DNA of 51,463 nucleotides from Synechococcus sp. GreenBA-s (GTDB taxonomy: Bacteria > Cyanobacteriota > Cyanobacteriia > PCC-6307 > Cyanobiaceae), in contig NZ_JAGQBX010000017.1 in the NCBI RefSeq assembly GCF_024345855.1, forward strand, positions 1 through 51,463, written 5' to 3'. The notes beneath the pieces are model-generated. The model did no database searches. It worked only from the letters and a program-made list of their open reading frames with translations, and was not told the origin of the DNA. The translations under genes were made by a program, and so were the position numbers. Shown piece by piece: positions 17,279 to 51,463 of this stretch; the first letter of the stretch is position 1; every line of letters begins with the position of its first letter.

Positions 17279-17284
17279 GGCGGG

Positions 17285-17953
17285 ATGCCGAGAGTGGCCG
17301 CCATACCTGTGTCCACCGTGATCGGCATCGACGTGGGTAGCTCCCGCAAGGGCTTCCACGCCGTGGCGCTCACCGGTGGTGCCTACGCCGGCCAGTTGGC
17401 GACCCCGGATGTCCAGGAGCTCGGCCGCTGGTGCCGCTCCGTGATCGGTGCCCAGCAGATCGCCATCGATGCGCCCTGCCGCTGGAGTGGCAATGGCCGG
17501 GCCCGGCCCTGCGAGCGTGAGTTGATGCAGCAGGGGATCTTCTGCTTCGCCTCCCCCAGCCGCGCGGTGGCCGTGAGCCATCCCCGCAACTACTACGGCT
17601 GGATGCTGCAGGGCGAGGCGCTCTACCGGGAGCTGGAGGCCAGCCATCCGCTGCTCTCCGGCCTGCCTGCGAGCGGTCCGGCCTGCTTCGAAACCTTTCC
17701 CCATGCCATCACCTGTCACCTGCGAGGCGGCAACGCCGAGGCTCGCCAGAAACGGCTGCAGCGCCGGGCCCTGCTGGAGCAGGCCGGCATCAACACCGCA
17801 ACACTCACCAGCATCGACTGGATCGATGCCGCCCTCTGCGCCCTCGCGGCTCACCACCTGGCCAGCGGTCGCCCCTGCTGGGCCTATGGCGAGCCGGGCA
17901 CGGGGCTGATCGTGGTGCCGCAGGGGCCCGATTGGAGCCACTGGACGGCGTGA
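17285..17953 (+). CDS. DUF429 domain protein (predicted RNase H-fold nuclease)
   Basis: This is a 222-residue DUF429 protein. TVIGIDVGSSRKGFHAVAL at about residues 11-29 is the first acidic strand of an RNase H-like fold, QQIAIDAPCRWS the second, and IDWIDAALCALAAHHLASG near the C-terminus the last acidic helix. CFETFPHAI is the family's conserved centre. Family members are predicted nucleases with no established substrate. The ATG at 17285 is seven bases from the divergent yefM remnant start; a Val start a few codons on is possible. It sits between hsdS and hsdR, so it may be RM cargo or a later insertion. Confidence 0.85.
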   Translation: MPRVAAIPVSTVIGIDVGSSRKGFHAVALTGGAYAGQLATPDVQELGRWCRSVIGAQQIAIDAPCRWSGNGRARPCERELMQQGIFCFASPSRAVAVSHPRNYYGWMLQGEALYRELEASHPLLSGLPASGPACFETFPHAITCHLRGGNAEARQKRLQRRALLEQAGINTATLTSIDWIDAALCALAAHHLASGRPCWAYGEPGTGLIVVPQGPDWSHWTA

Positions 17954-17971
17954 GCAGGCGTGGTCTCGAGT

Positions 17972-18013
17972 CCGACTTTTCCTGCATTGGCGGGCCGACT
18001 TTTCCTGCATTGG
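17972..18013. repeat. Tandem direct repeat, 19-base unit
   Basis: CCGACTTTTCCTGCATTGG occurs at 17972-17990 and again at 17995-18013, identical, with four bases (CGGG) between. No other copy was seen in the window. Closely spaced direct repeats of this size are a feature of IS21-type element ends and of regulator-binding arrays. No transposase gene is nearby. Confidence 0.75.
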
Positions 18014-18142
18014 AGGTGGGACATCCCTGGCCCCGACTGCCTTTGACCGGCTTGTCTGCCTACCGGTGGCTCCCTACATAGCCCACATCGAGCGTGTGGG
18101 GCAGGTTCTCTATTCCCGCCCGGATCAGCCAGACTGGACTCC

Positions 18143-18505
18143 ATGACCGCTTCGGCACGCCCTACCAGCTATTACTACGCGGTGGATGAGACGCTGCTGC
18201 GCACGATTGCGGCCGAGATCCAGGCGGCGATCCCTGGCGCTGAGGTGTGGCTGTTCGGTTCCCGCGCCCGCGGTACCGCACGGCCTGATTCCGACCTCGA
18301 CCTGCTGGTGACTGTGCCCGACGCCTGGCTGGCGAGCCATTCGCGATTTGAGGAAACGGATGCCCTGGGCTGGAAGCTCGCCCATCACCGGATCCCCATC
18401 GATCTGCTCCTGTATTCGCATCAGGAAGTGCAGGATCGTCTTCAATACAGGCAGCATGTCGTTGCGGAGCGCTATCGCTACGGCAGAGAACTGGATGTCT
18501 GCTGA
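18143..18505 (+). CDS. MNT-type nucleotidyltransferase, no HEPN partner
   Basis: This 120-residue protein has the minimal nucleotidyltransferase signature GSRARGTARPDSDLDLLV at about residues 38-55. The rest fits the DNA polymerase beta-like MNT family, including IPIDLLLYSHQEVQDRLQYR. Unlike the mntA-like gene at 7.6-7.9 kb, no HEPN gene is adjacent: the next gene is hsdR, 30 bases on. It could be an orphan antitoxin, the survivor of a lost module, or an RM-linked regulator. The ATG at 18143 follows CAGACTGGACTCC, which resembles the bases before three other start codons in this window. Confidence 0.85.
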   Translation: MTASARPTSYYYAVDETLLRTIAAEIQAAIPGAEVWLFGSRARGTARPDSDLDLLVTVPDAWLASHSRFEETDALGWKLAHHRIPIDLLLYSHQEVQDRLQYRQHVVAERYRYGRELDVC

Positions 18506-18535
18506 CCCCTACCTGCTCGTGGCCTCGCTACTCCC

Positions 18536-27785: not shown

Positions 27786-27867
27786 GCGCTGGGGTTCGGC
27801 GCTGGGCCGGATCCTGCTGTTCGTGGGCGCCAGCGCCACACTCGGGTCGGAGGCCGGCCCACCACCC

Positions 27868-29043
27868 ATGTCCCTGCACCCGTGTCTGGCGCGCCGCTGG
27901 CCCCTTGGGGCCGCGGCTGTGGTGGCTCTGCTGATGCCGCTGGCATCCCTGCTCCTGCAGCGGCCGAGTGCCGCCGCCACGGCCGGGCCCTCCACCCGTG
28001 CGGCCACGGCCGCGACCCGGGCCACGGTGGAGGAGATCCTTGATGGCCCGGATCTGTGGATCGAACGGCGCCGCGCCCGGGTCCATGACCGGGCCACCGC
28101 CCCGGAGCTGTTGCGCAGCGGTGAGAGCCGGGCCCAGCTGGCCTTCCAGAGCGGCGCGGCGGGCCGGATGAATCAACTCACCCAGCTGCGCCTGGGCAGC
28201 CGCTGCTCCCTGCTCGACCAGGGCCAGATCCTGCTCTCAGGGGCCCAGAGCCTCTGCCTGCGCTCGGCCCGCCTGAGCGTGCGCGGCACCCACGTGCTGG
28301 TGGAGCTCGACAGCCGCGGCGCGGCCGCCATCGCGGTGCTTGAGGGCCAGGTGGATGTCGAACCGCTGCCGGTGCCCGCGGCTGCGGGGACTGCGCCTCC
28401 GGCGGCCCCGGGGCCAGTGACCACCGTGGGCCAGGGGCAGCGGCTGCGGCTGAGTGCCGAGGGCCGGGTGCTGGCCCTCGAGGCGCTGACCGCCGCCGAC
28501 TACCGCGCCTTCGTGGAGGGGCCCCTGGTGGATGGCTTCACCACGCCCCTGCCGGGCCAGCCCGCCCTGGAGCGCAGCCTCTCCGCCGCTGCTCCGGGGC
28601 TCAGCCTGGCCTGTGGGGCCCGTCCGGACACCGCCCTGATCGAGGCGGTCAATGGGGCGCGGCGGCAGGCGGGCCGGCCCGCCTTCAGCCCGCTGCCGGC
28701 GGAACTGGCGGATCGCAACTGCCGCTATCTGGCGCCGGTGCTGCGCCGCATCCTGGCCAGCGGCGACTGCGACCATGACAGCCAGCGCTGGCAGGCCCTG
28801 CAGCAGGAGCCTGGCCGCTCCGCCGGTCTCACGCCGGTGAGCGAACTGATCGCCTGCCCGGGGGCCCGGGCCATCGATCCGGCCGTGGTGCTGCAGCGCT
28901 GGCTCGGTTCGCCCCTGCACACCAACCTGCTCTTCAACCGCCCCCGGGCCAGCCACCTGGACTGCGTCCAGCTGACGGCCTCCGGCCGCACGGCGGCGAT
29001 GTGCACCACCTGGGGCGGCGGTGGTCCGCGGCCGGCCACCTGA
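27868..29043 (+). CDS. Exported FecR-domain protein with C-terminal CAP-like domain
   Basis: This is a 391-residue exported protein. Residues 1-37 look like a signal peptide (RRWPLGAAAVVALLMPLASL). A FecR-like domain at about 50-210 has ATVEEILDGPDLWIERRRA, SRAQLAFQSGAAGRMNQLTQ, LRLGSRCSLLDQGQILLSGA and RLSVRGTHVLVELDSRG. The same motif series appears in the proteins at 39732 and 40733. The C-terminal third (ALIEAVNGARRQAGRPAFSP to CVQLTASGRTAAMCTTWG) resembles a CAP/SCP-type fold; four Cys there could form disulphides. Unlike the other FecR proteins, no cyclase follows. Probable site: periplasm or surface. CAP assignment is tentative. Confidence 0.75.
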   Translation: MSLHPCLARRWPLGAAAVVALLMPLASLLLQRPSAAATAGPSTRAATAATRATVEEILDGPDLWIERRRARVHDRATAPELLRSGESRAQLAFQSGAAGRMNQLTQLRLGSRCSLLDQGQILLSGAQSLCLRSARLSVRGTHVLVELDSRGAAAIAVLEGQVDVEPLPVPAAAGTAPPAAPGPVTTVGQGQRLRLSAEGRVLALEALTAADYRAFVEGPLVDGFTTPLPGQPALERSLSAAAPGLSLACGARPDTALIEAVNGARRQAGRPAFSPLPAELADRNCRYLAPVLRRILASGDCDHDSQRWQALQQEPGRSAGLTPVSELIACPGARAIDPAVVLQRWLGSPLHTNLLFNRPRASHLDCVQLTASGRTAAMCTTWGGGGPRPAT

Positions 29044-36977: not shown

Positions 36978-37002
36978 TGGGGGCCCGCTTCGCTGGCCCC
37001 CA
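36978..37002 (+). terminator. Perfect GC hairpin between ndk and the first FecR gene
   Basis: TGGGGGCC (36978-36985) and GGCCCCCA (36995-37002) are an exact 8-base inverted repeat with a nine-base loop. The right arm includes the A of the FecR ATG. No U-tract follows, so it may limit read-through or mask the FecR start rather than terminate outright. Confidence 0.4.
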
Positions 37003-37763
37003 TGCCTTTGGCTGAACGCCACCACGCCGCCTGGCCGGGACGCCGGATCTCCAACGGGGCTGTGGCGGCTGGAACGGTCCCGTTCCTGGCCGGCGCGCTC
37101 CTGGTCGCTGGCCTTCCACCGGCCTCTGGGCAGTCCGCCGCCATCCAGCCGAAGGTGGTGGATGTGCCATCCCGGCCGGCCTTCGTGCGTCCACCGGGCA
37201 CCCGGGAGCAACCGGCCCGGGCCGGCCAGCCGTTGCCCGGCAGCTCCCTGCTGCGCACCCAGCGACCAGGGCGCATGCAGGTGCAACTGGCCGATGGCCG
37301 CGGCTTCCGTCTGGGGGGCGACGCCATGCTTCGCCTCAGCGACGACGCGCTGCAGCTGGAGCGTGGTGAAATCATTGCCTGGCTGAAGCCAGGGACCCGC
37401 TCGAGTGCTCCCTTGCGGGTGCGAACCCGCGTGGGCACAGCTTCGATCGTGGGAACCACGCTGTTTATCGAGGCCGGCCCCGATCAGGTGCGCTTCCTGA
37501 GCTGGGAAGGCAAGGTGCGGGTGGACCCCGAGGACGGCCAGCCCCCGGTGATTCTCAATGGAGCTGAGACGGTTGTGTGGAAGGGCGGTGCCTGGGGCCC
37601 CCGCACGCGCCTGAGCCCTGAGGAAGCTCGCACCCGTCGGCGCACCAGCCGGCTACTCAACGGCTTCGCGCAGCCGATGGAGACCCTGCCCCTGGTCGAA
37701 CGCACCTTGCAGGAGGTCTCGGCGTCGGGCCCGGCGGAGGCGTCCTCCGGGCCCATCCGATGA
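37002..37763 (+). CDS. Exported FecR-domain protein (first of the cyclase cluster)
   Basis: This 253-residue protein has a signal peptide-like N-terminus (AVAAGTVPFLAGALLVAGLP, about 20-40). A FecR-type beta domain spans about 55-190: GSSLLRTQRPGRMQVQLADG, GFRLGGDAMLRLSDDALQLE, RVRTRVGTASIVGTTLFIEA, VRFLSWEGKVRVDPEDGQ. FecR-domain proteins sense or relay signals in the periplasm, often by contacting a membrane partner. It ends 11 bases before the CHASE2 cyclase start, so the two are almost certainly co-expressed, and a physical contact with the CHASE2 domain is a reasonable inference. It is less similar to the FecR proteins at 27868, 39732 and 40733 than those are to each other. Confidence 0.82.
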   Translation: MPLAERHHAAWPGRRISNGAVAAGTVPFLAGALLVAGLPPASGQSAAIQPKVVDVPSRPAFVRPPGTREQPARAGQPLPGSSLLRTQRPGRMQVQLADGRGFRLGGDAMLRLSDDALQLERGEIIAWLKPGTRSSAPLRVRTRVGTASIVGTTLFIEAGPDQVRFLSWEGKVRVDPEDGQPPVILNGAETVVWKGGAWGPRTRLSPEEARTRRRTSRLLNGFAQPMETLPLVERTLQEVSASGPAEASSGPIR

Positions 37764-37773
37764 GGTGCCGGCG

Positions 37774-39687
37774 ATGAGCGGGCCCAGGCGCCATCTCCGG
37801 GGCGTCGCCTGGGCCGGCCTGCTGACCCCCCTGCTGTGGCGTCTGGGTGTGCTGATGCCGCTGCTCGCCGCCCTGCCGGTGTTCCAGCCCGCGTCCCCCG
37901 GCCAGGCGATGGCGGCCTTGGAGGCCCAGGCCCAGGCCCTTGCGTTCCGCCTGCGGGGGCTGAGACCGGTGCCGGAGGAGCTGGTGATCCTGGCCATCGA
38001 CGCCGACTCCCTGGCCCTCGATGGCCTCTTGGCCCCCGGTGAGCGCGACAGCCTGCCGCTCTGGCGTGCCATGGGGGCCTGGCCATGGCCGCGGGCCCTG
38101 CAGGCCGAGCTGGCGGCCACGGCCCTGGAGGGCGGCGCCGCCCGGGTGGTCTTCAACGTGGTGCAGGCCCAGGCGAGTCGATTCGGGCCCACCGACGACG
38201 CGGCCTTTGTGCAGCGCCTGGCTCCCTGGCGGGATCGGGTGGTGTTGGCGGCGGCCGTCACGCGCCAGGGGCTGCCGGGAGCGGGCGAGGGCAGCGTGCA
38301 GGTTCAGCTCAGCCGTCCCCAGGCGCCCCTCGCGGCGGCGGCCGTGCCCGTGCCGGCCCTCACCACCGTGCTCCAGAGCCCCCAGGGGATGGCGGAGGCG
38401 ATCCCTGGCCAGGACTGGATCGATGACCAGCTCGGCGCCTTCTCCCCACCCCTGCCGCGGCCCTTGGCCTACGCCGCCAGCTCCGTTCCCGTGCCCCGCC
38501 AGCCGGTGGGCATTGATTTCCCCGGCCCCAGCGGCACCATCCCCCAGGTGCCGGCCTGGCAGGTCCTTGCGCAGCCCGCGGGGTTCTGGCGCGGTCGCAC
38601 CGTCCTGATCGGCGCCACGGCACCCGACCTGGGTGACCAGCAGGAGACCCCCTTCGGCCCCCAGAGCGGCACGGAGGTTCAGGCCGCAGCCCTGGCCAGT
38701 GTCCTCGCCGGGACCGGCTTCCGCCATCTGGATCCGGTCCCGGCCACTGGGCTGCTGGTTGCCTGGGCAGCCGTCGTGCTGCTGGCCCTGGGACGCCCGC
38801 GTCAGGCCAGTGACACCGCCACTCTGGCGTTGGCCCTGGCGCTGGGCGCCCTGGTGGCGGGGGGCGGGCTGTGGCTCATGGCCCACCGCGTGCTGCCCGT
38901 TCCCGCCCTGCTGCTGGCACCCCTGCTCGGGGGCGGGCTGCGGGGTGGTGGCCAGTGGCGCCTGGAAAGCCGGGAGCGGGCCTACCTGCATCAGGTGCTG
39001 GCCCGTCGCCTTTCACCCGCCCTGCTGCGCGAGCTCCTGAGGAATCCCGGGCCCCTGGGCACCCAGCTGGGGGGCAGTCGCGCCCGCTGTGTGGTGTTGT
39101 TCACCGATCTGGTCGACTTCACGCCCCTCAGCGCCCAGCTGGAGCCTGCGGCGCTGTTCGCCCTGTTGAATCGCTACTTCGCGGCGATCGGCGGGGCCGT
39201 GATCGAGGAGCAGGGGCTGCTCGACAAGTTCATCGGCGATGCCCTGATGGCGGAGTTCGGTGTGCCCCGCAGCCGTGGCGATGCGGTGGAGGCCCTGGCG
39301 GCGGTGCGGGCGGCCCTGGCGATGCGGGAGCGGCTGGTGGCGCTCAACCGGGAGCTGGCAGCCCAGGGCCTCCCCTCCCTGCGCCAGGGGATCGGTCTGC
39401 ATGTGGGGGATGTCATCGCCGGCAATCTGGGATCCCCCCAGCGGCTCGAGTTCACGGTGATCGGCGCGGCCGTGAATGTGGCCAGCCGGCTGGAGGGCCT
39501 CACCCGCCGCTTCCCCGACCATTCGATCCTGATCAGTGGTGAGCTGCTGGCCCTGCTGCCGCCGGGCGTGGAGGTGGAATCCCTGGGGCGCCATCCCCTC
39601 AAGGGCTGGCCCCAGCCCCTGGAGGTGTTTGGCCTGCGGGGGCTGGGGCCAGCGGCGGCTGGCGACCGGGGCCTGGCTTCGTTCTGA
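37774..39687 (+). CDS. CHASE2-domain adenylate cyclase (first)
   Basis: This is a 637-residue transmembrane cyclase. A first span (about 12-35) is followed by an extracytoplasmic CHASE2 sensor (LVILAIDADSLALDG, ARVVFNVVQAQAS, TVLIGATAPDLGDQQETPFG), then two or three spans (LLVAWAAVVLLALG, LALALALGALVAGGGLWLMA, VPALLLAPLLGGGL). The class III cyclase domain covers about 430-615: metal Asp in FTDLVDFT and DKFIGDALMAEFG, and Asn/Arg in NVASRLEG. The base-selecting residues are Lys (DKFIGD) and Thr (EFTVIG), the adenine-type pair of Anabaena CyaB1, so cAMP is the likely product. ATG 37774 preferred over GTG 37765. Confidence 0.9.
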   Translation: MSGPRRHLRGVAWAGLLTPLLWRLGVLMPLLAALPVFQPASPGQAMAALEAQAQALAFRLRGLRPVPEELVILAIDADSLALDGLLAPGERDSLPLWRAMGAWPWPRALQAELAATALEGGAARVVFNVVQAQASRFGPTDDAAFVQRLAPWRDRVVLAAAVTRQGLPGAGEGSVQVQLSRPQAPLAAAAVPVPALTTVLQSPQGMAEAIPGQDWIDDQLGAFSPPLPRPLAYAASSVPVPRQPVGIDFPGPSGTIPQVPAWQVLAQPAGFWRGRTVLIGATAPDLGDQQETPFGPQSGTEVQAAALASVLAGTGFRHLDPVPATGLLVAWAAVVLLALGRPRQASDTATLALALALGALVAGGGLWLMAHRVLPVPALLLAPLLGGGLRGGGQWRLESRERAYLHQVLARRLSPALLRELLRNPGPLGTQLGGSRARCVVLFTDLVDFTPLSAQLEPAALFALLNRYFAAIGGAVIEEQGLLDKFIGDALMAEFGVPRSRGDAVEALAAVRAALAMRERLVALNRELAAQGLPSLRQGIGLHVGDVIAGNLGSPQRLEFTVIGAAVNVASRLEGLTRRFPDHSILISGELLALLPPGVEVESLGRHPLKGWPQPLEVFGLRGLGPAAAGDRGLASF

Positions 39688-39731
39688 GAATGGGTTGAGA
39701 ATGGCGGGCGGTTCCCTGCAGGCGATCCGCC

Positions 39732-40505
39732 ATGCCGCCATCTGCCCTGTCGCGATCCGCCCTGTCGCGATCTGCCAGGCCGTGCGTCGAGCGGACCACC
39801 GCCGTGCGGGCCGCCGGTCTGACCGCCACATTGACCCTGATGGCTGGGCTGCTGTCCCCCTGGGCTGCCCAGGCGGCCGAAACGGCCACCGTGCGCGAGA
39901 TTCTCGATGGCAATGAGCTCTTCATCAATGAGCGCCAGGCCAAGGTGAACGACCGGGCAGTGGCGCCGCAGGGGATCAACACCCTCAACAGTCGCGCCCA
40001 GCTCAGTTTCGCCTCGGGGGCGGCCGGCCGCCTCAATCGCTTTTCGGAGTTGCGGCTCGGCACCGGCTGCTTCCTACTGGCCAAGGGCGAGGTGTTGGTG
40101 TCCGGCAAGCAGAGCGGCTGCACCCGCTCCTCCCGGCTCAGCGTGCGGGGGACCAATTACGTCCTCACGGTCGACGAGCAGGGCGTTTCGGAGCTTTCGG
40201 TGCTGGAGGGTTCGGTCGAGGTGGAGCCCCTCAAGGACGGCCAGTCCACGGGCCAGCCCACGACCACCGTGAATGCCGGCGAGCGGTTGCGCCTGTCTGC
40301 TGCCGGGGTGGTGCTCACCCTGCTTCGGCTCAGCAGCGGCGATTACTCCAGCATCCTCGGAGGTCCCCTGTTTGAGGGCTTTCGGGCGCCCCTGCCGGCC
40401 TTTGGGTCGCTGGAGAGCTATATCCGCTCCTCTGTCCCCGGTGTATCGCTTCCCTCGCTGCCGGCGGCACCGGTGCCCTCCTTCGGGTTCCCTCGCTTCT
40501 TCTGA
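39732..40505 (+). CDS. Exported FecR-domain protein (second)
   Basis: This 257-residue exported protein has a signal region (AGLTATLTLMAGLLSPWAAQ A) ending near residue 48. The FecR-like domain (about 50-170) shares its motif order with the proteins at 27868 and 40733: TVREILDGNELFINERQAKV, SRAQLSFASGAAGRLNRFSE, LRLGTGCFLLAKGEVLVSGK, RLSVRGTNYVLTVDEQG, LSVLEGSVEVEPL. Two Cys (GTGCF, QSGCT) are conserved in this subgroup and could form a disulphide. The tail is Pro/Phe-rich. It starts 44 bases after the first cyclase. Confidence 0.82.
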   Translation: MPPSALSRSALSRSARPCVERTTAVRAAGLTATLTLMAGLLSPWAAQAAETATVREILDGNELFINERQAKVNDRAVAPQGINTLNSRAQLSFASGAAGRLNRFSELRLGTGCFLLAKGEVLVSGKQSGCTRSSRLSVRGTNYVLTVDEQGVSELSVLEGSVEVEPLKDGQSTGQPTTTVNAGERLRLSAAGVVLTLLRLSSGDYSSILGGPLFEGFRAPLPAFGSLESYIRSSVPGVSLPSLPAAPVPSFGFPRFF

Positions 40506-40732
40506 GGCTCGTCTGATCCGGGCCCCTGCGGGCCCCATGACCTCGGGCCGTGCCGCCAGGTTGACAACGAGGCCGTTGCGGGGGGGGGGATTGAGATGCT
40601 GATCTCCGTCATCGGCCGTGATTACACCAATTGCGGTGGTTGCCATGTCTCGGTATGCCCCGATACTGAGGGTCGGGTCAAGCTGACTGAGGCTTTGCCC
40701 CATACCGGTCTTCCTGCGCGCGCTTCTTCCCC

Positions 40733-41443
40733 ATGGCACAGGTCTCTCGGCCCCGCCTTCGTCGTTGCTCCCCCGGCTTTGCGCTGACGGCTGTGGTCCT
40801 GTCGCTTCTGGGCTCGGCGGCGGCACCGCCTGCCGAGGCCGCCAAGGCCCGGGCCACCGTGACCGAGATCCTGGACGGCACGGAATTCTTCATTGAAGCC
40901 AAGCCGGCCAAGGTGCTCCAGCAGGCCACCACGCCTGAGGTGGTGAGCACCAAGAGCAGCCGCGGCACCCTGGCCTTCAGCAACGGGGCGATGGCGCGGA
41001 TCAATCGCAACTCCCAGTTCAAGCTGCAGTCCAGCTGCTTCCTGCTCACCAAGGGCCAGGTGCTGATCTCAGGCCCCCAGAACGCCTGCATTCCCAGCAT
41101 GAAGATGGCGGCCCGGGGTACCAATTACATCGTGGAAGTGCTGGACGATGGCACCACCCAGCTCTCCGTGCTGGAGGGGGTGGTGCAGCTGGAGAACACT
41201 GACCCTCGCAAGCGGGCCTGGATCAATCCGATCGATCGGGAGACGGTGCGCATCTCCCCGACCGGCGAAATCCTGGATCGGCGCTGCATGGTCTCCACCG
41301 ACTACAAGGCCGTGCTCAAGGGTCCCCTCTTCCAGGGGTATGAGAAGCCCCTGCCGGCGTTCAACAGCCTGAGCAACCTGCTGAGCGTCAACGTGCCCCT
41401 GCCGCGGGCGGCCCTGTCGGTGCTGAGCTTCGGCCTGTTCTGA
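40733..41443 (+). CDS. Exported FecR-domain protein (third)
   Basis: This 236-residue exported protein has a signal peptide (GFALTAVVLSLLGSAAAPPA) followed by the same FecR series: TVTEILDGTEFFIEAKPAKV, SRGTLAFSNGAMARINRNSQ, LQSSCFLLTKGQVLISGPQN, ARGTNYIVEVLDDG, LSVLEGVVQLEN. It looks like a tandem duplicate of the gene at 39732; both keep the paired Cys and an LLSVN/LESYI-like tail. It lies 22 bases before the second cyclase. The 226 bases upstream hold no gene I can support and could carry a promoter for this pair. Confidence 0.83.
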   Translation: MAQVSRPRLRRCSPGFALTAVVLSLLGSAAAPPAEAAKARATVTEILDGTEFFIEAKPAKVLQQATTPEVVSTKSSRGTLAFSNGAMARINRNSQFKLQSSCFLLTKGQVLISGPQNACIPSMKMAARGTNYIVEVLDDGTTQLSVLEGVVQLENTDPRKRAWINPIDRETVRISPTGEILDRRCMVSTDYKAVLKGPLFQGYEKPLPAFNSLSNLLSVNVPLPRAALSVLSFGLF

Positions 41444-41465: not shown

Positions 41466-43382
41466 ATGGCCCGCTTCCTGCCCCGCCAGCTCGCCCTCCC
41501 GTTCCTCTCAGCGGCGGTGCTGCTTGCCGTGGCGGGCCTGACGGCCCATCCGCCGGCTGAGTTGCGTGGCTGGGAGCGCAGCCTGGAGAACCTGATGGTG
41601 CGGCTGCGGGGCGAGCGGCGCCCGCCGGATCGGCTGGTGGTGGTCGCCATCGACGACTCCACCCTGCAGCAGGGGGCCTGGTTCCTCGACCAGCCCAAAG
41701 GCCAGGCGGCCATTCCCCGCTGGGCCCAGGGCATCAGCACCCTGCCCTGGCCGCGGGCTCGCTATGGGGATCTGCTGGATCGGCTCTTCCAAGCCGGGGC
41801 CAGCGCCGTGGCGCTCAACGTGGTGTTTGAAGGCCCCAGCGGCCGTGGCGCCGACGACGATGCGGCCTTGGCTGATGCTCTGCGCCGCCACAAGGGCCGG
41901 GTGGCCCTGGCGGCCGAAATGCTCGAGACCCGGGATCAGACGGTGGCCGGCCTGACGCTGGTGCAGCCCCCGACGCCCCTGTTGCAGGCGGCCGGTCCGT
42001 TCAATCTGGGGCTTACCAATACCCTCCCCCCCACCCAGGGCGAGCCGGCGTTTCATCCAGAGGTCTATAGCCGCGGGGTGCTGCCCGCCAGCGGAGCAGA
42101 CGCCTACCCGTCCCTGTCCTCCACGCTGCTGCGGCGGGCCGGCATCCACAGTCGCCAGCAAGACGAGCAGCGACAGCTCAACTTCTACGGGCCCGAGGGG
42201 CGCTTTGAGCGGGTGTCCGCCTGGGAAGTGCTCGATCCTGATCGCTGGAGTCGCCATCCCAAGCGCAACCGGCTCCAGAACGCCCTCGTCGTGGTCGGTC
42301 CGGTGGTCTCCCAGGGCGGGGCTGCCGGTACCCCCTCGCCCTACGGAGCCATCAGCGGCCTGGAGCTGCTCGCCACCGCCAGTGCCAACTCCCTGCTGGG
42401 CGATGGTCTGGTGCCTTGGCCCGCCTCGCCGCTGGGTCGGGGCCTGCTGGCGATGGTCCCGGTGCTGCTGGTGGTCCTGTCCGTGCGCGCCGGCACGGGG
42501 CTGGGGTTGCGGCTGGGCCTGGTGGGCGCCACGCTCGCTCTGGTGGTGGCGGTGGCCTTCCTGGCCCTGGTCCAGGCCCAGGTGTGGCTCCCCCTGCTCA
42601 CCCCTGCCGCAGGCCTTGTGCTGCTCGGCCTGCTCTACGGCGGCGATGCCTACCTGCGCGAGGAGGGCGAGCGGCGGCGACTGCGGCGCACCTTCGAGCG
42701 CTATGTGGCCCCCACGGTGGTGGCGGAGATCCTCTCGGATCCGGCGGCCGCCGAGGGGATCCTGCGGGGGCGACTGCTGCCGGTCACGGTGCTGTTCACC
42801 GACCTCAAGGGCTTCACCCAGCTCACCCAGCAGCGCAGCGGCAGCGGCGAGATCGAGCTGCACGTGCGCCAGCTCAACCGCTACCTGGGCGAGATGGTGG
42901 AGGTGGTGACGGCCCACGGCGGCACGATCGACAAGTTCATCGGCGATGCGGTGATGGCGGTATTCGGCTCCCCCATCAGCCGCGGCAGCGGCGAAGAGGC
43001 GGTGGCCGCGCTGCGCTGCGCCCAGGCGATGCGGGAGGCCCTGGCCGGTCTCAACCGGGAATGGGCGGAGGAGGGTCTGGTCCCGTTCGAGAACGGCATC
43101 GGCCTGGCGTCAGGCGAGGTGATCGTGGGCCAGATCGGCAGCCCCCGCCGGATGGAGTTCACCGTGATCGGCGACAAGGTGAACCTCGCCAGCCGGCTGG
43201 AGGGCCTCACCCGCACGGCGGGGGTGTCGATCCTCTGCGATGCCACCACAGCAGAGCTGGCGCAGGGCAGCCTGGAGATCCGTCCCATGGGAGAACAGCA
43301 GGTGAAGGGCATGGGGGCGATTCCGGTGTTCACCCCGGCCGAAGCTCAGGCCGATGCGCCGCTCCCGGGCGCGGGCAGCTGA
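41466..43382 (+). CDS. CHASE2-domain adenylate cyclase (second)
   Basis: This 638-residue paralogue of the first cyclase has the same layout: span, CHASE2 (DRLVVVAIDDSTLQQGAW, ASAVALNVVFEGPSGRG), spans (LLAMVPVLLVVLSVRAG, LGLVGATLALVVAVAFLALV, LPLLTPAAGLVLLGLLYGG), then a class III cyclase domain (about 435-615). Catalytic residues are intact: FTDLKGFT, DKFIGDAVMAVFG, Lys and Thr (EFTVIGDK) for adenine, and NLASRLEG. It ends in an Ala/Asp-rich tail overlapping the convergent thiO by 37 bases. Two paralogous cyclases, each preceded by a FecR gene, suggest duplication of a FecR-cyclase unit. Confidence 0.9.
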   Translation: MARFLPRQLALPFLSAAVLLAVAGLTAHPPAELRGWERSLENLMVRLRGERRPPDRLVVVAIDDSTLQQGAWFLDQPKGQAAIPRWAQGISTLPWPRARYGDLLDRLFQAGASAVALNVVFEGPSGRGADDDAALADALRRHKGRVALAAEMLETRDQTVAGLTLVQPPTPLLQAAGPFNLGLTNTLPPTQGEPAFHPEVYSRGVLPASGADAYPSLSSTLLRRAGIHSRQQDEQRQLNFYGPEGRFERVSAWEVLDPDRWSRHPKRNRLQNALVVVGPVVSQGGAAGTPSPYGAISGLELLATASANSLLGDGLVPWPASPLGRGLLAMVPVLLVVLSVRAGTGLGLRLGLVGATLALVVAVAFLALVQAQVWLPLLTPAAGLVLLGLLYGGDAYLREEGERRRLRRTFERYVAPTVVAEILSDPAAAEGILRGRLLPVTVLFTDLKGFTQLTQQRSGSGEIELHVRQLNRYLGEMVEVVTAHGGTIDKFIGDAVMAVFGSPISRGSGEEAVAALRCAQAMREALAGLNREWAEEGLVPFENGIGLASGEVIVGQIGSPRRMEFTVIGDKVNLASRLEGLTRTAGVSILCDATTAELAQGSLEIRPMGEQQVKGMGAIPVFTPAEAQADAPLPGAGS

Positions 43383-44776: not shown

Positions 44777-46300
44777 ATGGCAGGGGCCGCCGCAACCGCC
44801 AGCGCCAAGACAGCCACCGCGCCGGGCTCCACCGCACCGGCCGCCTGGGAGGCGGTGATCGGCCTGGAAACCCACGTACAGCTGGGCACGGCCAGCAAGA
44901 TCTTCACAAGCGCCTCCACCGCCTTCGGCGACGACCCCAACACCCACATCGACCCAGTGGTGTGCGGCCTGCCCGGCACCCTGCCGGTGCTGAATCAGAA
45001 GGTGCTCGAGTATGCCGTGAAGGCGGCGATGGCGCTGAACCTACACGTCGCTGAGCACAGCAAGTTCGATCGCAAGCAGTATTTCTATCCCGACCTGCCC
45101 AAGAACTACCAGATCTCCCAGTACGACGAGCCGATCGCTGAAGACGGTTGGATCGAGGTGGAGGTGGCAGAGAAGGGCAAGGAGACCTACACCAAGCGCA
45201 TCGGCATCGAGCGCCTGCACATGGAGGAGGATGCCGGCAAGTTGGTACACGCCGGCAGCGATCGCCTGGCAGGCTCCACCCACTCCCTGGTGGATTACAA
45301 CCGCGCCGGTGTGGCCCTGGCCGAGATCGTGAGCAAGCCCGATCTGCGCACCGGCCGCGAGGCGGCGGAATACGCCTCGGAGATTCGCCGGATTGTGCGT
45401 TATCTGGGCGTGAGCGACGGCAACATGCAGGAGGGCTCCCTGCGCTGCGACGTAAACATCTCCGTGCGGCGCGGGCCCGAGGCCCCCTTCGGCACAAAGG
45501 TGGAGATCAAGAACATGAATTCCTTCTCCGCCATCCAGAAGGCGATCGATTTCGAGATCCAGCGCCAGATCAAGGCCTACGAGGCCGGTGAGCCCGTGGT
45601 GCAGGAAACCCGCCTCTGGGATGAGGCCAAGCAGCTCACCAAGAGCATGCGCGGTAAGGAAGGCGCCAGCGACTACCGCTACTTCCCCGACCCCGACCTC
45701 GGCCCGATCGAAGTGAGTGCCGAACGGCGCGAAGGCTGGCGCGCCGAACTGCCGGAACTGCCGGCCGCCAAGCGCCACCGCTACGCCGAGCAGCTGGGCC
45801 TGTCGATCTACGACGCCCGCGTGCTCACCGATGAGCGCGCCATGGCCGACTACTTCGAGGCCGCCGTAGCTGCCGGGGCGGATGCAAAGGGGCTCGCCAA
45901 CTGGATCACCGGCGACATCGCCGCCCACGTGAATGCCAACCGGCTCTCCTATGCCGATCTGCCCTTCCGGCCTGAGCAGCTGGCCGAGATGGTGCAGCTG
46001 ATCGACGGTGGGGTGATCAGCGGCAAGATCGCCAAGGAGATCCTGCCTGAGCTGTTGGAGAAAGGCGGCTCCCCCAAGGCGATCGTGGAAGAGCGCGGTC
46101 TGGGCATGATCAGTGATCCTGCGGCGATCGGTGTCGTTGTCGATGAGCTCCTTGCGGCCCACCCCGAGGAGGTGGAAGCGTTCCGCGGTGGCAAGACGAA
46201 GCTTCTGGGGTTCTTCGTGGGTCAGTTGATGAAGAAGACTGGCGGCAAGGCTGACCCCACGCTCGCCAACAAGATCCTCAACCAGAAGCTGAAGGGGTAA
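44777..46300 (+). CDS. gatB: Aspartyl/glutamyl-tRNA(Asn/Gln) amidotransferase subunit B
   Basis: This is the 507-residue GatB, kinase/transamidation subunit of GatCAB, which amidates Glu-tRNA-Gln and Asp-tRNA-Asn. Family stretches are VIGLETHVQLGTASKIFTSA, PVVCGLPGTLPVLN, DRKQYFYPDLPKNYQISQYD, GSLRCDVNISVRRG and KMRGKEG-type SMRGKEGASDYRYFPDPDL. The C-terminal YqeY-like helical domain is complete. A Shine-Dalgarno (AGGAG at 44765-44769) precedes the ATG at 44777. It is the last housekeeping gene before the AT-richer right end. Confidence 0.96.
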   Translation: MAGAAATASAKTATAPGSTAPAAWEAVIGLETHVQLGTASKIFTSASTAFGDDPNTHIDPVVCGLPGTLPVLNQKVLEYAVKAAMALNLHVAEHSKFDRKQYFYPDLPKNYQISQYDEPIAEDGWIEVEVAEKGKETYTKRIGIERLHMEEDAGKLVHAGSDRLAGSTHSLVDYNRAGVALAEIVSKPDLRTGREAAEYASEIRRIVRYLGVSDGNMQEGSLRCDVNISVRRGPEAPFGTKVEIKNMNSFSAIQKAIDFEIQRQIKAYEAGEPVVQETRLWDEAKQLTKSMRGKEGASDYRYFPDPDLGPIEVSAERREGWRAELPELPAAKRHRYAEQLGLSIYDARVLTDERAMADYFEAAVAAGADAKGLANWITGDIAAHVNANRLSYADLPFRPEQLAEMVQLIDGGVISGKIAKEILPELLEKGGSPKAIVEERGLGMISDPAAIGVVVDELLAAHPEEVEAFRGGKTKLLGFFVGQLMKKTGGKADPTLANKILNQKLKG

Positions 46301-46403
46301 CTAAGATTTTCAATCATCTCGGCCCATTCCTGCCAGGGGCTTCAATTTATGAGTATCTCGCTGAACTCCCTATCGTAGGCTTCTGCAAACTGATTGATCT
46401 GGC

Positions 46404-47102
46404 ATGAATACCCAGGCCATGGATTATCTTCCTGCTTTAGCGGCAAGTCTCTCTGAGAGAAGGGCTGGCCTGGAGCCAGTCTTTGCACTTCAGATCGGAG
46501 CTATGGATGGCGTTCAGTTTGACCCGCTTCACCAGCTGATTCGCAGCTATGGATGGCATGCACTTTTGGTAGAGCCGCTGCCAGACTCATTCGCGGCGCT
46601 TAAACGACATTATGCGGACGTCCCAGGGATATCATTTGCCAACTGCGCGATCGGTGACGCGCCGGGGATGCTTCCCCTCTATCACGTTTCACCAGAAGTC
46701 GTGCAGGCAGAGGGTTTTCCTGCTTGGGTTCTTGGGATTTCGTCACTATCACGGGAGCATGTTGAGGCCCAGGAGGTCTTTTTCCAGAGATCCGGGTTTC
46801 GGGATCTGATGCGCTATGTGAGCACCATTGCCGTTGAGGTTGTCACACTAAGAATGCTCCTCGACCGTCATGGATCGCCTCGGGTGGATGTCTTGCAGAT
46901 TGATGCCGAGGGCTACGACTACAAGGTCTTGAGACAGTGGGACTTTTCGCTTGGCAGGCCATCGATTATTAATTTTGAGCGCGCACGCCTATCGGCTCAC
47001 GAAAAGACACTCTCAGTCGAGTTGCTGCTAGCTCAAGGATATGCCTTGTATCAGCATGGCTTGGATGTTGCTGCCTTCTGTGTTGAGACTCTTGGCGTCT
47101 AA
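46404..47102 (+). CDS. FkbM-family methyltransferase
   Basis: This 232-residue SAM-dependent methyltransferase of the FkbM type is recognised by VFALQIGAMDGVQFDPLHQL (motif I variant), HALLVEPLPDSFAALKRHYA, CAIGDAPGMLPLYHV, LRMLLDRHGSPRVDVLQIDA and EGYDYKVLRQWDF. FkbM enzymes O-methylate sugars or small molecules and are common in glycan loci. Its codon use and lower GC differ from gatB just upstream. It is 255 bases before the GT/oxygenase gene on the same strand, so the methyltransferase may act on the glycan that protein makes; that is inference. Confidence 0.88.
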   Translation: MNTQAMDYLPALAASLSERRAGLEPVFALQIGAMDGVQFDPLHQLIRSYGWHALLVEPLPDSFAALKRHYADVPGISFANCAIGDAPGMLPLYHVSPEVVQAEGFPAWVLGISSLSREHVEAQEVFFQRSGFRDLMRYVSTIAVEVVTLRMLLDRHGSPRVDVLQIDAEGYDYKVLRQWDFSLGRPSIINFERARLSAHEKTLSVELLLAQGYALYQHGLDVAAFCVETLGV

Positions 47103-47357
47103 AGGCCGTTGTTGCGCAAAGGAGTATCTGGCAAGGCTGGTGAATACGCTTAGGGCTCACACCATATGATGGTCGTACAGATTCATGTTTGGAACATTGA
47201 CATACCATGAGATCGTGCACCCTCGATCCAGATTGATAGGGATGATCAAGGAGGCCCACGGCTCGACCGGCGAGGCCACTCGCTTGAAGCAAGGCCCTAG
47301 ATTGGCAATGAAGGGTGATATGGCTAGCATTCAGTAGTGGATGTCATTGCCGTGACT

Positions 47358-49235
47358 ATGTCGGAGTCGTTGTCGCCGGAATGGCGCAGCTGGGTAGAGA
47401 TCAATCTGGGTCGCAATCCTCAGTGCGGCTCGAATCTATTGCTAACGCTATTGGACCGTGGCTTTCATCCGCTAGCGGGGATGGAAGCCATTGGAGACTT
47501 TCCAATTCAGCTTGCATCGGGCTCTAGCTCTATTCAGGAGGCTCAGATCTGCGTACTCATAGCTTCTTATCGTGATCCTGAATGTGTGCCGACTCTTGAG
47601 AACCTGTTTGCACAGGCTCTCTGGCCTGATCGAATCAGAGTAGCTCTTCTGAGTCAGGAGGAGAAGGGGGAGGAGGTGCGCTTGCCGGAGTCAATTGGCA
47701 ATCGTCGCAGTCAGATTACAATTCGGCGGCGGAAGGCCAGCTCCAGCAAAGGAGCCTGCTGGGCGCGCCATCACTGTCAGACATTGCTTAAGGATGAGCC
47801 TTTTGCCTTGCAGATTGATAGTCATATGCGATTTGAGAAGGGTTGGGATGCTTTACTGCTAGCCGCTTGGTTACATTGCCGTGATCCGAAGGCAGTCCTT
47901 ACGGCTTACCCAGCTGGATATCAGCCTGACGGGGATCTGCAGCAGGGCGTGTTCCATGGAATGGCGGCTAAAGAGTTTGATGCAGATGGCATTCTCCTAT
48001 TCACTGGCAGGCCGCGTTACGTCGATGGGAGTGCCGCCCCCAAAGCACCGCAGCCAGGTGCTTTCATCAGTGCTAACTTCCTGTTTGGCCCTTCAGACTA
48101 TGCAAGAGACGTTCCATACGACCCGAATGTCTACTTCTTTGGCGAAGAGATAAGTCTTTCTGTGCGGCTATGGACACATGGCTACAATATATATCATCCC
48201 AATCGCGCCTTGCTATATCACTATTGGGATCGATCATCTCGTGCCACCCATTTTAGTGATCATTCCGGATGGCGTGAGGTGGATAGGGCTTCAAAAGCTC
48301 GTATTCGCGCGCTACTGGGTGTGCCGGCTCATGAGGGAGATCCCCCAGCTATTGATCTAGGCTGTTATGGCTTAGGCGAGATTCGGTCACTACCTGAGTA
48401 TGAGCAATGGAGTGGGATCCAATTCGCAGCCGGAGTCATTGCCGCTTCGGCTGCGAATGGTCAGTTTCCTGCTCCCATAGCGCGTAGTTTTAACCCACAT
48501 GCTGTTGTGGTTGCCGCAGACGAGGATATTGTTGTTGTTGACGACTTTCTTCCCGAGGAAGACTATCGCAAGCTAAGGGAGTTTCTTGTTTGCTCTGATT
48601 ACAAGCATATCAATACCACTGGGACCGTTTCGCGCGCGTGGCACCTGCAAGACCGCTTTCCCTTGCGAAGTGACAAGAGTTGGATTATGCCTGCGACTCA
48701 GCCTGCTGGTGATAAGCCTGACTGGGTCATTCCGACGGGCACCCCGATTGATGGCTTCATGCAGGCTGTAGATGTGTTCCAGTCTTTACGAGTTCCGTTT
48801 GTCGGTAGACGAGGGGAAAGCTGGGACGAATTCTCCTCCACTGCCTGGATCTATCCTCCCGGTACAGGCCTTGCGATGCATACTGATGGGTCCAATGTCT
48901 ATGCTGGAGCCTATGTGTATTTCCTGAACGACACTTGGCGATCTCACTGGGGCGGCTTCCTGATCGTAATGGACCAGACTGTGAATCAATTCGTCGCCAA
49001 GAAGGAAAAGGCTCAAGAGGGTATGCGGTGGTATCGGCGGCGTTGGCTAAATGAGAATGAGCTTGAAGAGTTCATGCTAGAAGCCGGCGGCATGGGCCGA
49101 TGTATCTTCCCAAAAGCCAATCGTATTGCCTTCCTTGGCAATACTACCTATCATATGGTCACTAGGGTCAACGAAGAGGCGGGTGATTGCGTGCGACTTT
49201 CGCTGGCTGGCTTCTTTTCATTGCGTAAGTCCTGA
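47358..49235 (+). CDS. GlcNAc transferase (GT60-like) fused to 2-oxoglutarate/Fe(II) oxygenase
   Basis: This 625-residue protein has two enzyme domains. Residues 64-330 match the GlcNAc glycosyltransferase family: ICVLIASYRDPECVPTLENL, a DSHMRFEKGWD metal site (Asp154, His156), FGEEISLSVRLWTHGYNIYH and LYHYWDRSS. Residues 395-625 are a prolyl-4-hydroxylase-like oxygenase: iron ligands His508 and Asp510 (MHTDG) and His599 (YHMV), and Arg613 for 2-oxoglutarate, all present. In Dictyostelium the GT60 enzyme Gnt1 adds GlcNAc to a hydroxyproline made by a separate prolyl hydroxylase; here both activities would be in one chain. ATG 47358 preferred; GTG 47337 adds seven residues. The substrate is not proven. 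Confidence 0.85.
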   Translation: MSESLSPEWRSWVEINLGRNPQCGSNLLLTLLDRGFHPLAGMEAIGDFPIQLASGSSSIQEAQICVLIASYRDPECVPTLENLFAQALWPDRIRVALLSQEEKGEEVRLPESIGNRRSQITIRRRKASSSKGACWARHHCQTLLKDEPFALQIDSHMRFEKGWDALLLAAWLHCRDPKAVLTAYPAGYQPDGDLQQGVFHGMAAKEFDADGILLFTGRPRYVDGSAAPKAPQPGAFISANFLFGPSDYARDVPYDPNVYFFGEEISLSVRLWTHGYNIYHPNRALLYHYWDRSSRATHFSDHSGWREVDRASKARIRALLGVPAHEGDPPAIDLGCYGLGEIRSLPEYEQWSGIQFAAGVIAASAANGQFPAPIARSFNPHAVVVAADEDIVVVDDFLPEEDYRKLREFLVCSDYKHINTTGTVSRAWHLQDRFPLRSDKSWIMPATQPAGDKPDWVIPTGTPIDGFMQAVDVFQSLRVPFVGRRGESWDEFSSTAWIYPPGTGLAMHTDGSNVYAGAYVYFLNDTWRSHWGGFLIVMDQTVNQFVAKKEKAQEGMRWYRRRWLNENELEEFMLEAGGMGRCIFPKANRIAFLGNTTYHMVTRVNEEAGDCVRLSLAGFFSLRKS

Positions 49236-50566
49236 TGTGTACGGTACTCGGGCTGCAATGCGCGCGCTTCTGGCGGCCGCCGTTGCTGATCTTCCACGTA
49301 GCTCAATTCATGGATTCTTGACTTCCCTGATCGTCGTGACTGATGGTGTGAGTCCACGAACTACTTGATCTTGCGATCTTGAGCTGAGTGGCGGATCTGG
49401 GTGTCTCTGGCTGCTTTAAGTCTGCTCTCGTTCCGCTCCTGTGTCGTGGGGAAATGCTGGGATCCTGCTGCTTTTCGTTTCTGTTGTCTCAGAGGACTTC
49501 CTGGTAAGCTCCTGACAACCCAGCGTGCTTGTCCATGGAGATAGTCAGGTGATCGTTGCCGATGCAGGCTTGTGGATGAGTTGCCGCCTGTGTCCTCAGC
49601 CTGCAGCTATCTCCTGGATCACCAGCTGGAAAGCTCGGGGAAGATGTTGATTCTGCTTCAGATATGGGATTGTAAACAGTGAGTGCCATGATCATGGTCA
49701 ATCGCACTTACGTTTATGCTGACTCCAAGGTTTGGCATTGCTGTGTGTACCGCACTTGCCGATGTGATCAATCGCGCCCCGCAGACTGGGTCCACAGAAG
49801 GCAGCACCCCGTGCTCCTCTCGCACACTCGCTACTGCAAAGGGATCACCAAGACCGCGGGTCATCACTGGCGATAGTCCTTCTCAAGGAAGCTGCATAGG
49901 CAGTGCCACTCTGCGCCCTCCGCTGAACCTTGTTGTTCGGTACACTCTACAGGGAAGTCAATTGGTCTGAATTGGCATTTGCACCGCATGAGCGCAGAAG
50001 AAGGATATGGCCAGGGTGAGAGAGTTTATGGTCACGCGCACTGTTATGAGAAGCTGGTCGTGCTCTCGGATTCCTCGATGGTTATCGAACTATTGGTCAT
50101 GAACCTGAGAAGATCCATGGCCATTGTTGCCTCGGCCTCGGTATTCAGTGTCCTTGCGATGGCCTGTACTGTCTCTGAATGATTGCCCAAGAGCAGCAAG
50201 CATTGGCAATGAATATGACCATACCCTCATCTAATCGAGGCGCCGATAGTACCCGATCAGCAGCTGGCTGAAGGGATGGCTTCCTGAGGGGAGAGGATTT
50301 CATGCAACTTTGCGTAAGGCACGCCCCAATCGCTGCTCCCTTGGCATTCTGTCGGATTCTCAGTGGCTTTTAAGGGGCTGGTCAGCCATCCCAGTTGGCT
50401 GTCTAGCGCTGCCTTTTGCCTCAACGTGAAGCGCGTTGGTTTCACAGGAACTTCTCAGCCGATCCCGGTGGCCTTGGTCCTTCTAAAGGCTTAAAGTTGC
50501 GGAAAGACCCTGTAATCGAATGCTGAGCCTCTGTGGAGTCTCGGCTAATCGTCTTCGTTTGGTGCC
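49236..50566. other. 1.3 kb without a recognisable gene
   Basis: No intact gene is supported. The sequence is AT-richer than the core genome and full of stops. Short open stretches on the minus strand (49489-49707, 49658-49867 and 50257-50445) show no family I recognise. It may hold decayed genes, and it may contain the promoter of the repeat protein that starts at 50567. Confidence 0.5.
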
Positions 50567-51463
50567 ATGCCTGAGATTCCGCCGATCCTGGGGCCAACCC
50601 CGAATGAGAGTCAGGACGCCGGCAATGCTGCCGAGTCTCAGGCGTCCGACGATGAGCTTCGCAAGCTTGGCCAGCAGCCAGGTTCCCAGTCGACCTACCG
50701 CCAGGGTGGGGAGAAAGCACCCCCGCCCGGCAGCACTGATGTTGGCTCTGCCGACCCTCTGACGCCTCCTGACGAACGGGGTGTTGGCCCCATTGGAGCG
50801 ATTGGGTCCACCCCACGCACGGACCTCTTCGTCTCTTCTCCACCACCGGGCCCGGTGAGTGGTGGCCTGGGTGCAACCACTACGCCTGCCAATTTGGCAC
50901 CCACTGGTTTCTCCGCTAGGGAGCTTAACCTTCAGCAAGTCCCAGGAGTTTTCAACGAGCAGCTGATCACCGATCCTCTCAGCAGCGCCCCCCTGGGTTT
51001 CGCTGAGATCGCCGCTGACCCGGCTCCAGCTCCTGATCCCGCCCCAGCTCCTGAGCCCGCTCCGGCTCCAGCTCCTGAACCTGCGCCCGCTCCAGCTCCT
51101 GAGCCCGCTCCGGCTCCAGCTCCTGAGCCCGCTCCGGCTCCAGCTCCTGAACCTGCGCCCGCTCCAGCTCCTGAGCCCGCTCCGGCTCCAGCTCCTGAGC
51201 CTGCGCCCGCTCCAGCTCCTGAGCCCGCGCCCGCCCCAGCTCCTGAGCCCGCTCCGGCTCCGGCTCCTGAACCCGCGCCTTCTCCGGAACCAGAGCCAGA
51301 TCCGGATGACGACGACGATGATGACTCGTCCGATGACGACGATGATGACTCGTCCGATGACGACGATGATGACTCGTCCGATGACGACGATGATGACTCG
51401 TCCGATGACGACGATGATGACTCGTCCGATGACGACGATGATGACTCGTCCGATGACGACGAT
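50567..51463 (+). CDS. Pro/Ala/Glu- and Asp/Ser-repeat protein, C-terminus beyond the window
   Basis: This frame is open from ATG 50567 to the window end (299 codons) with no stop. Residues 1-150 are polar and Pro/Gly/Ser-rich (ILGPTPNESQDAGNAAESQA, PGPVSGGLGATTTPANLAPT), with no signal peptide. Residues 151-246 are a PAPAPEP-type repeat; from 247 an Asp6-Ser2 repeat begins. Lack of an N-terminal signal plus acidic repeats fits a type I-secreted or cell-surface protein that binds calcium, but no domain is visible yet. It is same-strand and 1.3 kb downstream of the GT/oxygenase, a possible modifier of its prolines. Confidence 0.75.
   Translation, partial: MPEIPPILGPTPNESQDAGNAAESQASDDELRKLGQQPGSQSTYRQGGEKAPPPGSTDVGSADPLTPPDERGVGPIGAIGSTPRTDLFVSSPPPGPVSGGLGATTTPANLAPTGFSARELNLQQVPGVFNEQLITDPLSSAPLGFAEIAADPAPAPDPAPAPEPAPAPAPEPAPAPAPEPAPAPAPEPAPAPAPEPAPAPAPEPAPAPAPEPAPAPAPEPAPAPAPEPAPAPAPEPAPSPEPEPDPDDDDDDDSSDDDDDDSSDDDDDDSSDDDDDDSSDDDDDDSSDDDDDDSSDDDD
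51017..51304 (+). repeat. PAPAPEPA-type coding repeat, 24-base period
   Basis: About a dozen imperfect copies of an eight-residue unit (PAPAPAPE or PAPAPEPA registers) run in frame. Third-position changes (CCTGAGCCC/CCTGAACCT, GCTCCG/GCGCCC) show the array is older than the Asp array that follows. Every proline alternates with Ala or Glu. Confidence 0.9.
51305..51463 (+). repeat. Asp6-Ser2 coding repeat, 24-base unit, identical copies
   Basis: After a 27-base first unit (Asp7-Ser2), five identical 24-base units encoding DDDDDDSS run from 51332 to 51451, and a partial sixth reaches the window edge. Identical copies point to recent expansion; length variation and assembly collapse are both possible. 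Confidence 0.92.

Follow-up and report, generated by a model that had tools for sequence, protein, structure and literature searches.

A GT60 glycosyltransferase–2OG-Fe(II) oxygenase fusion in Synechococcus sp. GreenBA-s, a candidate enzyme for modifying Pro-rich secreted proteins

In this study, we describe a protein of Synechococcus sp. GreenBA-s in which a GT60 glycosyltransferase domain and a 2OG-Fe(II) oxygenase domain are joined in one chain. The window, i.e. the whole stretch of DNA that was analysed, is one complete contig (C9) with a length of 51463 bases, from a genome of 2.85 Mb. The domain families, the catalytic residues, the predicted folds, the recurrent linkage of GT60 to oxygenases and the recurrent adjacency of GT60 genes and repeat ORFs were computed directly. 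On balance, it seems somewhat probable that the fusion is a bifunctional enzyme, both prolyl hydroxylase and polypeptide O-HexNAc-transferase, that acts on Pro-rich linkers in secreted proteins, with hydroxyproline as the acceptor in the window. For this enzyme we infer a compartment, a prolyl specificity, a donor sugar, an order of steps, a hydroxyproline acceptor and a neighbouring ORF as substrate. It would probably be cytoplasmic, and its C-terminal PHD-type oxygenase may hydroxylate prolines in the disordered Pro-rich linker of a surface protein before export. The N-terminal GT60 domain would place alpha-HexNAc on hydroxyls of the same linker, using the newly made hydroxyproline in the case of the window.

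Domains, catalytic residues and predicted folds

The fusion gene (47358..49235, + strand) was confirmed as an intact frame of 625 aa with its ATG at 47358 and its stop at 49235; an alternative GTG start at 47337 would give a protein of 632 aa. An HMM search, which the preliminary description had suggested, placed both domains above their Pfam cut-offs, as expected of the single-chain architecture proposed there. The GT60 domain (PF11397; 47544..48467, +; residues about 63-370) was matched strongly (E=1.7e-67, 228.8 bits against a cut-off of 21), and the oxygenase domain (48489..49232, +; residues 378-625) barely passed with PF13640 (residues 498-620, E=1e-6, 30 bits against 27). PF13640 is a mixed family. 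The iron ligands H508 and D510 (HxD; 48879-48887, +) and H599 (49152-49154, +) and the 2OG-binding R613 (49194-49196, +) lie exactly where they had been predicted, and are invariant in 7/8 aligned rows, with the window counted among the seven and the eighth row (L104) ending ahead of these positions. By alignment, the GT60 domain carries a DxH motif (D154-S-H156; 47817-47825, +); a GT-A survey gives DxH instead of DxD as a trait of GT27 and GT60 (PMC7185993). No ricin-like domain was detected in the fusion protein by the Pfam scan at E<=1, and GT60 is described as a GT-A fold near GT27 without the C-terminal ricin-like domain (PMC8724618). The short, predicted-helical segment of residues 6-48 (47373..47501, +) is similar to the N-terminal stretch (WxxWLxxNxxRxCD) found in 2OG oxygenases that adjoin GT60 genes elsewhere, marginally so in leave-one-out HMM searches (E=0.11 and 0.08) and in a part of low model confidence; this likeness is suggestive only.

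A full-length AlphaFold2 model was built from 22 rows (mean pLDDT 79.9) and compared with VIA-align. Its GT part is nearest to ppGalNAc-T2 (Z 23.6, 280 residues, 3.7 A, 14% identity), followed by other GalNAc-transferases down to Z 20.2 and, below these, by the sugar-acceptor enzymes LARGE1 (Z 17.5), GlfT2 (17.2) and chondroitin polymerase (17.0). The oxygenase part is nearest to the P. putida P4H 4j25 (Z 17.6, 172 residues, 3.0 A, 22%), followed by PHD2 and OGFOD1 (both Z 16.4). Modelled alone, the oxygenase was poor (pLDDT 63.7); its top Z scores were tied between P4H (7.8), PHD2 (7.6), OGFOD1 (7.5) and AlkB (7.5), and Foldseek with this isolated model returned nothing at E<=0.001 (best P. 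putida P4H, 0.023, and PHD2, 0.055). At the level of sequence, the best PDB match of the oxygenase was 4iw3 at a non-significant E=0.45, and a profile search against solved prolyl hydroxylases gave no match. A sugar or lipid hydroxylase as the closest oxygenase fold was absent among the best matches listed, although AlkB ranked level with P4H, PHD2 and OGFOD1 when the oxygenase was modelled, weakly, on its own. The preliminary description had named two outcomes that would speak against it, namely an oxygenase best matching sugar or lipid hydroxylases and a GT domain matching another acceptor class; neither appeared, the nearest structures being prolyl hydroxylases with OGFOD1 and polypeptide GalNAc-transferases. 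The predicted structures support the view that both domains are closest to protein-modifying enzymes. To this extent the interpretation in the preliminary description is supported in part, a hydroxyproline acceptor being plausible but unproven.

Several known enzymes share one of the two folds. Animal ppGalNAc-transferases (GT27) have in common with the window protein the predicted GT fold and the DxH motif (PMC7185993), but they are only about 14% identical and the window protein has no ricin-like domain. The oxygenase has a predicted fold like that of the P. putida prolyl-4-hydroxylase PPHD (EF-Tu; PMC7864055), human PHD2 and OGFOD1; unlike the window protein, these are not fused to GT60, and the sequence match to them is insignificant. 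A further comparison is with LH3/PLOD3 and the mimiviral collagen-modifying enzymes; in LH3, hydroxylase and glycosyltransferase activities are carried on one chain. A Foldseek alignment of LH3 spans both fusion domains with a low TM-score of 0.26. These enzymes target lysine and have a different GT family.

We regard it as quite improbable that the oxygenase targets a different residue (Thr, Asp or Lys) or a different molecule (the transferred sugar) and that the fusion serves the making of cell-surface glycans. The mixed nature of PF13640 and the level standing of AlkB in the isolated model would fit such a role, as would the gene for an FkbM-family methyltransferase (46404..47102, +; PF05050 E=5.2e-18) just upstream of the fusion. 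Its product might possibly methylate the glycan. One of three stand-alone distant relatives of the window oxygenase that were examined also adjoins an FkbM methyltransferase, together with an aldo/keto reductase. However, prolyl hydroxylases lead the oxygenase matches in the full-length model, and the other two relatives (L227 and L229, 26-28%) are found near a peptidase-domain ABC transporter on a Serratia plasmid and near a DUF692 protein with an ABC transporter on a Streptomyces plasmid. Such settings are typical of peptide modification, and these surroundings are possible peptide-modification clusters.

Relatives of the fusion and linkage of GT60 to oxygenases

Within the order sample, 22/299 genomes match the fusion, and beyond residue 384 only its own genome does. 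Broad cyanobacterial occurrence of the oxygenase domain was ruled out, with 1/386 cyanobacterial genomes searched, again its own, containing it. A GT60-profile scan with one genome per species yielded 209 relatives, of which the best 80, ranked by likeness to the window protein, were analysed; since these loci are the most window-like of the 209, fusions are favoured in this set. All 83/83 GT60 ORFs of the 80 loci carry a loose D-x-H-x-R type pattern at least once, and in 8/80 the GT60 is fused to a window-type oxygenase. The search for the same fusion elsewhere, also proposed in the preliminary description, was rewarded with a two-domain twin and with giant alphaproteobacterial proteins that end in the same oxygenase. 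The twin (L080, a proteobacterial MAG) has the same layout and 35% identity across residues 55-623, its oxygenase scoring 24.6 bits, below the Pfam cut-off. As L080 has the same two-domain protein, the fusion is more than chance, and together with the giants it rules out an assembly artefact.

The giants (L081-L085, L089 and L104; alphaproteobacterial/rickettsial) measure 1313-2456 aa as stop-to-stop frames in the available DNA, L085 and L104 being cut by the contig end within the oxygenase and L089 on its 5' side. Their usual layout is GT60, AhpC/TSA-like part, oxygenase a and oxygenase b, with 2-4 GT60 copies by a custom HMM. The AhpC/TSA-like part is present in 5/7 at E<=0.01 (above the cut-off in 3) and oxygenase a in 6/7, and oxygenase b is of the window type (44-48% identical). 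L104 is without the middle parts and ends as a contiguous GT60-oxygenase b, 44% identical to window residues 44-472. Beside each of six giant genes (L081-L085, L104) stands a divergent sulfotransferase-like gene (e.g. L081:5197-6033, - strand), called by PF13469 in L081 (E=1.7e-10) and by a GMHRSGTS-like start in the other five, a hint that the glycans may be sulfated.

In a tree of GT60 sequences, a picocyanobacterial clade forms the sister group of the window GT60 (support of the joint set 99/98); six members of this clade have an adjacent oxygenase gene. The window GT60 sits on a long end branch (0.93), and the L080 GT60 is not near it, without a resolved placement. The fusion and FkbM genes share a stretch of low GC (46300..50400), and because this has 52-58% GC against 65-75% upstream, both look acquired; from composition, the stretch was probably acquired. 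It is nevertheless very improbable, in our view, that the fusion is merely a recent arrival with little or no function in its host. The low-GC setting, the single occurrence among 386 cyanobacterial genomes and the long end branch would be consistent with such an arrival, but the 625-codon frame is intact and every catalytic residue is present.

Linkage of GT60 to oxygenases was also counted in 49 genomes, which represent 49 of the 80 loci; the omitted 31 comprise the 8 window-type fusions and 23 loci chosen by eye, the latter thinning near relatives and short contigs and including four with an adjacent oxygenase. PF13640 was fused to GT60 or within 2 kb of it in 6/49 genomes, where 0.15 would be expected (Poisson P=1e-8; observed pairs tallied by hand from domain listings). 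Two of these share an ORF with GT60 (L100, 2OG-GT60-TTL, in Kordiimonas sediminis, and L134, GT60-2OG), and the four unfused pairs (L090, L126, L143 and L158) alone give P=2e-5. A phmmer scan for 2OG neighbours, trimmed by hand, linked 18/80 loci (10 fused and 8 adjacent; best 80 of 209), and 62/80 were without an oxygenase fused or within 2 kb. The raw scan had given 36/80; 18 loci, whose sole matches were minus-strand frames over the GT60 gene, were dropped because one seed ORF contained antisense GT60 sequence. The linkage is spread over several branches of the GT60 tree. In one cyanobacterium (G498) GT60, AhpC/TSA and 2OG parts are fused, and in another (G601) a 2OG gene adjoins a GT60-nucleotidyltransferase gene.

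Some of these loci have further features. The K. sediminis protein (L100:7293-9917), from a cultured organism, is an 875-aa fusion of 2OG, GT60 and tubulin-tyrosine-ligase-like parts. Two cyanobacterial loci (L158:5459-9800 and L075:6521-10483) contain in a row a kinase-like gene, a PqqD-domain protein whose tail is Thr/Pro or poly-Thr, a 2OG oxygenase and a GT60-NTP_transf_5 fusion, which looks like leader-guided modification of the Thr-rich tail. In L140, GT60 is fused to PqqD and to a part that weakly matches HPr kinase; by eye, L107, L146 and L156 appear similar.

GT60 genes were also found on mobile elements. Viral contigs contained 11 loci with GT60, among them L028-L032, L034 and L035, and four viral GT60 copies have an extra C-terminal part in common. 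The oxygenase profile found nothing in the viral contigs, and the single oxygenase sequence gave six matches, confined to 32-63 residues and lying in short ORFs (171-183 aa); a viral origin of the fusion was rejected since viral GT60 is present but the oxygenase profile is without a viral match. Three phage records carry GT60 alone; GT60 genes occur in the Xanthomonas phage XacN1 and the Stenotrophomonas phages CM1 and RAS14, whose genomes measure 320-385 kb, and 6 Synechococcus phages gave weak oxygenase matches (E=6e-3). Among plasmids 19 records matched, and the 15 listed each match one part of the fusion, GT60 or oxygenase. Two plasmid GT60 genes (L230 and L231; Azospirillum thermophilum and Burkholderia ambifaria MC40-6) stand beside annotated phage-tail genes and within an annotated type VI secretion locus.

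Repeat neighbours and the putative acceptor

Downstream of the fusion, after about 1.3 kb with small ORFs only, lies a candidate substrate ORF (50567..51463, +) that is cut by the contig end and has an adhesin-like N-terminus (LapA/RTX). Its (X-Pro) repeat (51017-51304, +) comprises 96 aa, namely 48 P, 32 A, 12 E, 3 D, 1 S and 0 T, and is followed by DDDDDDSS repeats up to the contig end. The ORF had no Pfam match. Of 250 other genomes, two encode proteins that match its N-terminus, G142 with a LapA/VWA/RTX protein of 2271 aa (35%, E=5.9e-7) and G063 (38%, E=5.3e-8). The G142 adhesin stands, by eye, behind type I secretion-like ORFs; in this genome, of the same genus as the window genome, adhesin and GT60 are on separate contigs. 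The repeat ORF has 58-66% GC, above the low-GC stretch and partly from its repeat codons. As the low-GC stretch seems to stop before the Pro-rich ORF, the fusion gene and its presumed substrate may form separate units.

The window genome has a second GT60 gene, on contig C23, with a 2OG gene as its neighbour; this contig starts with ...TPTPTPTPTPL-stop. In V. limneticus (L115; oxygenase PF13640 E=3.6e-12) a repeat protein at the corresponding place ends likewise. Elsewhere in the window, translations suggest a probable type I restriction-modification locus (11185-20887; HsdM-, HsdS- and HsdR-like ORFs preceded by an ATPase-like one) and repeated FecR-like and CHASE2-adenylate-cyclase-like ORFs (27682-29043, 37002-41443 and 41466-43382). 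A similar pair adjoins a second GT60 locus of V. limneticus (L225).

Repeat ORFs are common neighbours of GT60 genes. Within 1.5 kb of GT60, a Pro/Thr-repeat ORF was present in 22/80 loci (best 80 of 209) compared with 1/60 control loci (Fisher p=1.6e-5), a statistic in which loci of the same family are non-independent and some of the 22 rows are doubtful (L087 is Pro-rich, not Thr-rich, L118 overlaps the GT60 frame, and L123 was counted via an antisense frame, though a real PPVTTE repeat ORF adjoins). As controls we took, of 94 PF13640 places away from GT60, the 60 with the highest scores; they represent 35 of the 49 genomes, and a single control locus is shorter on one side. Across whole loci the contrast was weaker (27/82 GT60 loci against 8/60 controls), with repeat ORFs at 2/11 fused, 3/5 adjacent and 22/66 other GT60 loci, the last class still including L088, L096, L099 and L115, which were later reclassed. 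At L080 the neighbour has RTX repeats with (PTPTPEP)n, and about 2 kb from the L134 GT60 lies a TPS-domain protein with (PTPEP)n, both from domain searches; a second L080 ORF is collagen-like, (GPTGETG)n, and other neighbours look secreted by eye only.

The chief rival to a hydroxyproline acceptor keeps both activities and lets them run in parallel, the GT60 sugar going to Thr/Ser of Pro/Thr-rich linkers as in mucins and the oxygenase modifying nearby Pro, so that hydroxyproline is no acceptor. We consider it unlikely, but it draws on several observations. The repeats adjoining GT60 genes in the best 80 of 209 loci are mostly Thr-rich, the 62/80 loci mentioned above are without a linked oxygenase, and Thr occurs within the repeat in 6/7 repeat-bearing oxygenase-linked loci. 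Moreover, the predicted GT fold is closest to Ser/Thr GalNAc-transferases, and the GT60 family includes Ser/Thr enzymes (PMC8724618). By contrast, the neighbouring repeat in the window has 0 Thr and one Ser, and for this reason hydroxyproline is proposed as the acceptor there. In addition, strict alternating X-Pro runs track the oxygenase, occurring in 5/7 repeat-bearing linked loci (window, L080, L134, L143, L115, L158 and L075) against 1/21 unlinked ones after removal of the L123 antisense frames (p=0.001, post hoc); X-Pro runs are also present in 4/60 control loci, and 14 oxygenase-linked loci, giants included, have no repeat neighbour in the available DNA and stand outside this comparison.

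Relation to known glycosylation pathways and implications

The protist Skp1 pathway employs the prolyl hydroxylase PhyA/P4H1 and the GT60 enzyme Gnt1 (PMC8724618, PMC7864055, PMC9485057). Enzyme pairs of this pathway are fused in some protists, according to a passage that names no pairs (PMC8724618); because of the step order in the pathway, we infer that the hydroxylase-Gnt1 pair is among them. The window fusion is like the Skp1 system in combining the classes of a PHD-type hydroxylase and a polypeptide alpha-GlcNAc-transferase. Unlike it, the fusion is bacterial, its candidate targets are Pro/Thr-rich secreted-type proteins instead of Skp1, and its oxygenase is only distantly similar to PhyA (6t8m, Z 6.9 with the isolated model). 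To our knowledge, bacteria do not possess SCF ligases. GT60 also comprises the mucin-type pp-alphaGlcNAc-transferases of Trypanosoma cruzi and Dictyostelium (PMC8724618). Their Ser/Thr-rich targets resemble the repeats beside bacterial GT60 genes, whereas the enzymes are eukaryotic and the window fusion is bacterial. We know of no oxygenase fused to them.

The literature records listed included neither a report of a bacterial GT60-prolyl hydroxylase fusion nor one of a characterised bacterial GT60. A 2010 survey of peptide-modifying dioxygenases may refer to related fusions. The characterised GT60 enzymes met in the available literature are from protists (PMC8724618). As GT60-hydroxylase pairing exists in the protist Skp1 pathway, the kind is already known, and what is new here is a bacterial version presumably directed at surface proteins.

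More tentatively, and with rather less confidence than in a bifunctional enzyme for Pro-rich linkers, one may think of a bacterial hydroxyproline-linked O-glycosylation of surface adhesins, carried out by hydroxylase-GT60 fusions on X-Pro linkers. The giants, whose single chains combine as many as four GT60 domains with a peroxiredoxin-like domain and a pair of oxygenases, would then work as assembly lines for building and lengthening the glycan. If true, such glycosylation would be a case of convergence with that of plant arabinogalactan proteins and of protist Skp1.

Bacterial GT60 relatives often stand beside Pro/Thr-repeat genes, and therefore bacteria may have a hydroxyproline- or mucin-type glycosylation of their own. 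The linkage of GT60, a prolyl-hydroxylase-like oxygenase and a Pro/Thr-rich protein provides a direct substrate hypothesis. If it is true, protein glycosylation of the mucin type, and perhaps also of the hydroxyproline type, would exist in bacteria; the one-chain enzymes are possibly useful tools and bear on the origin of the protist pathway.
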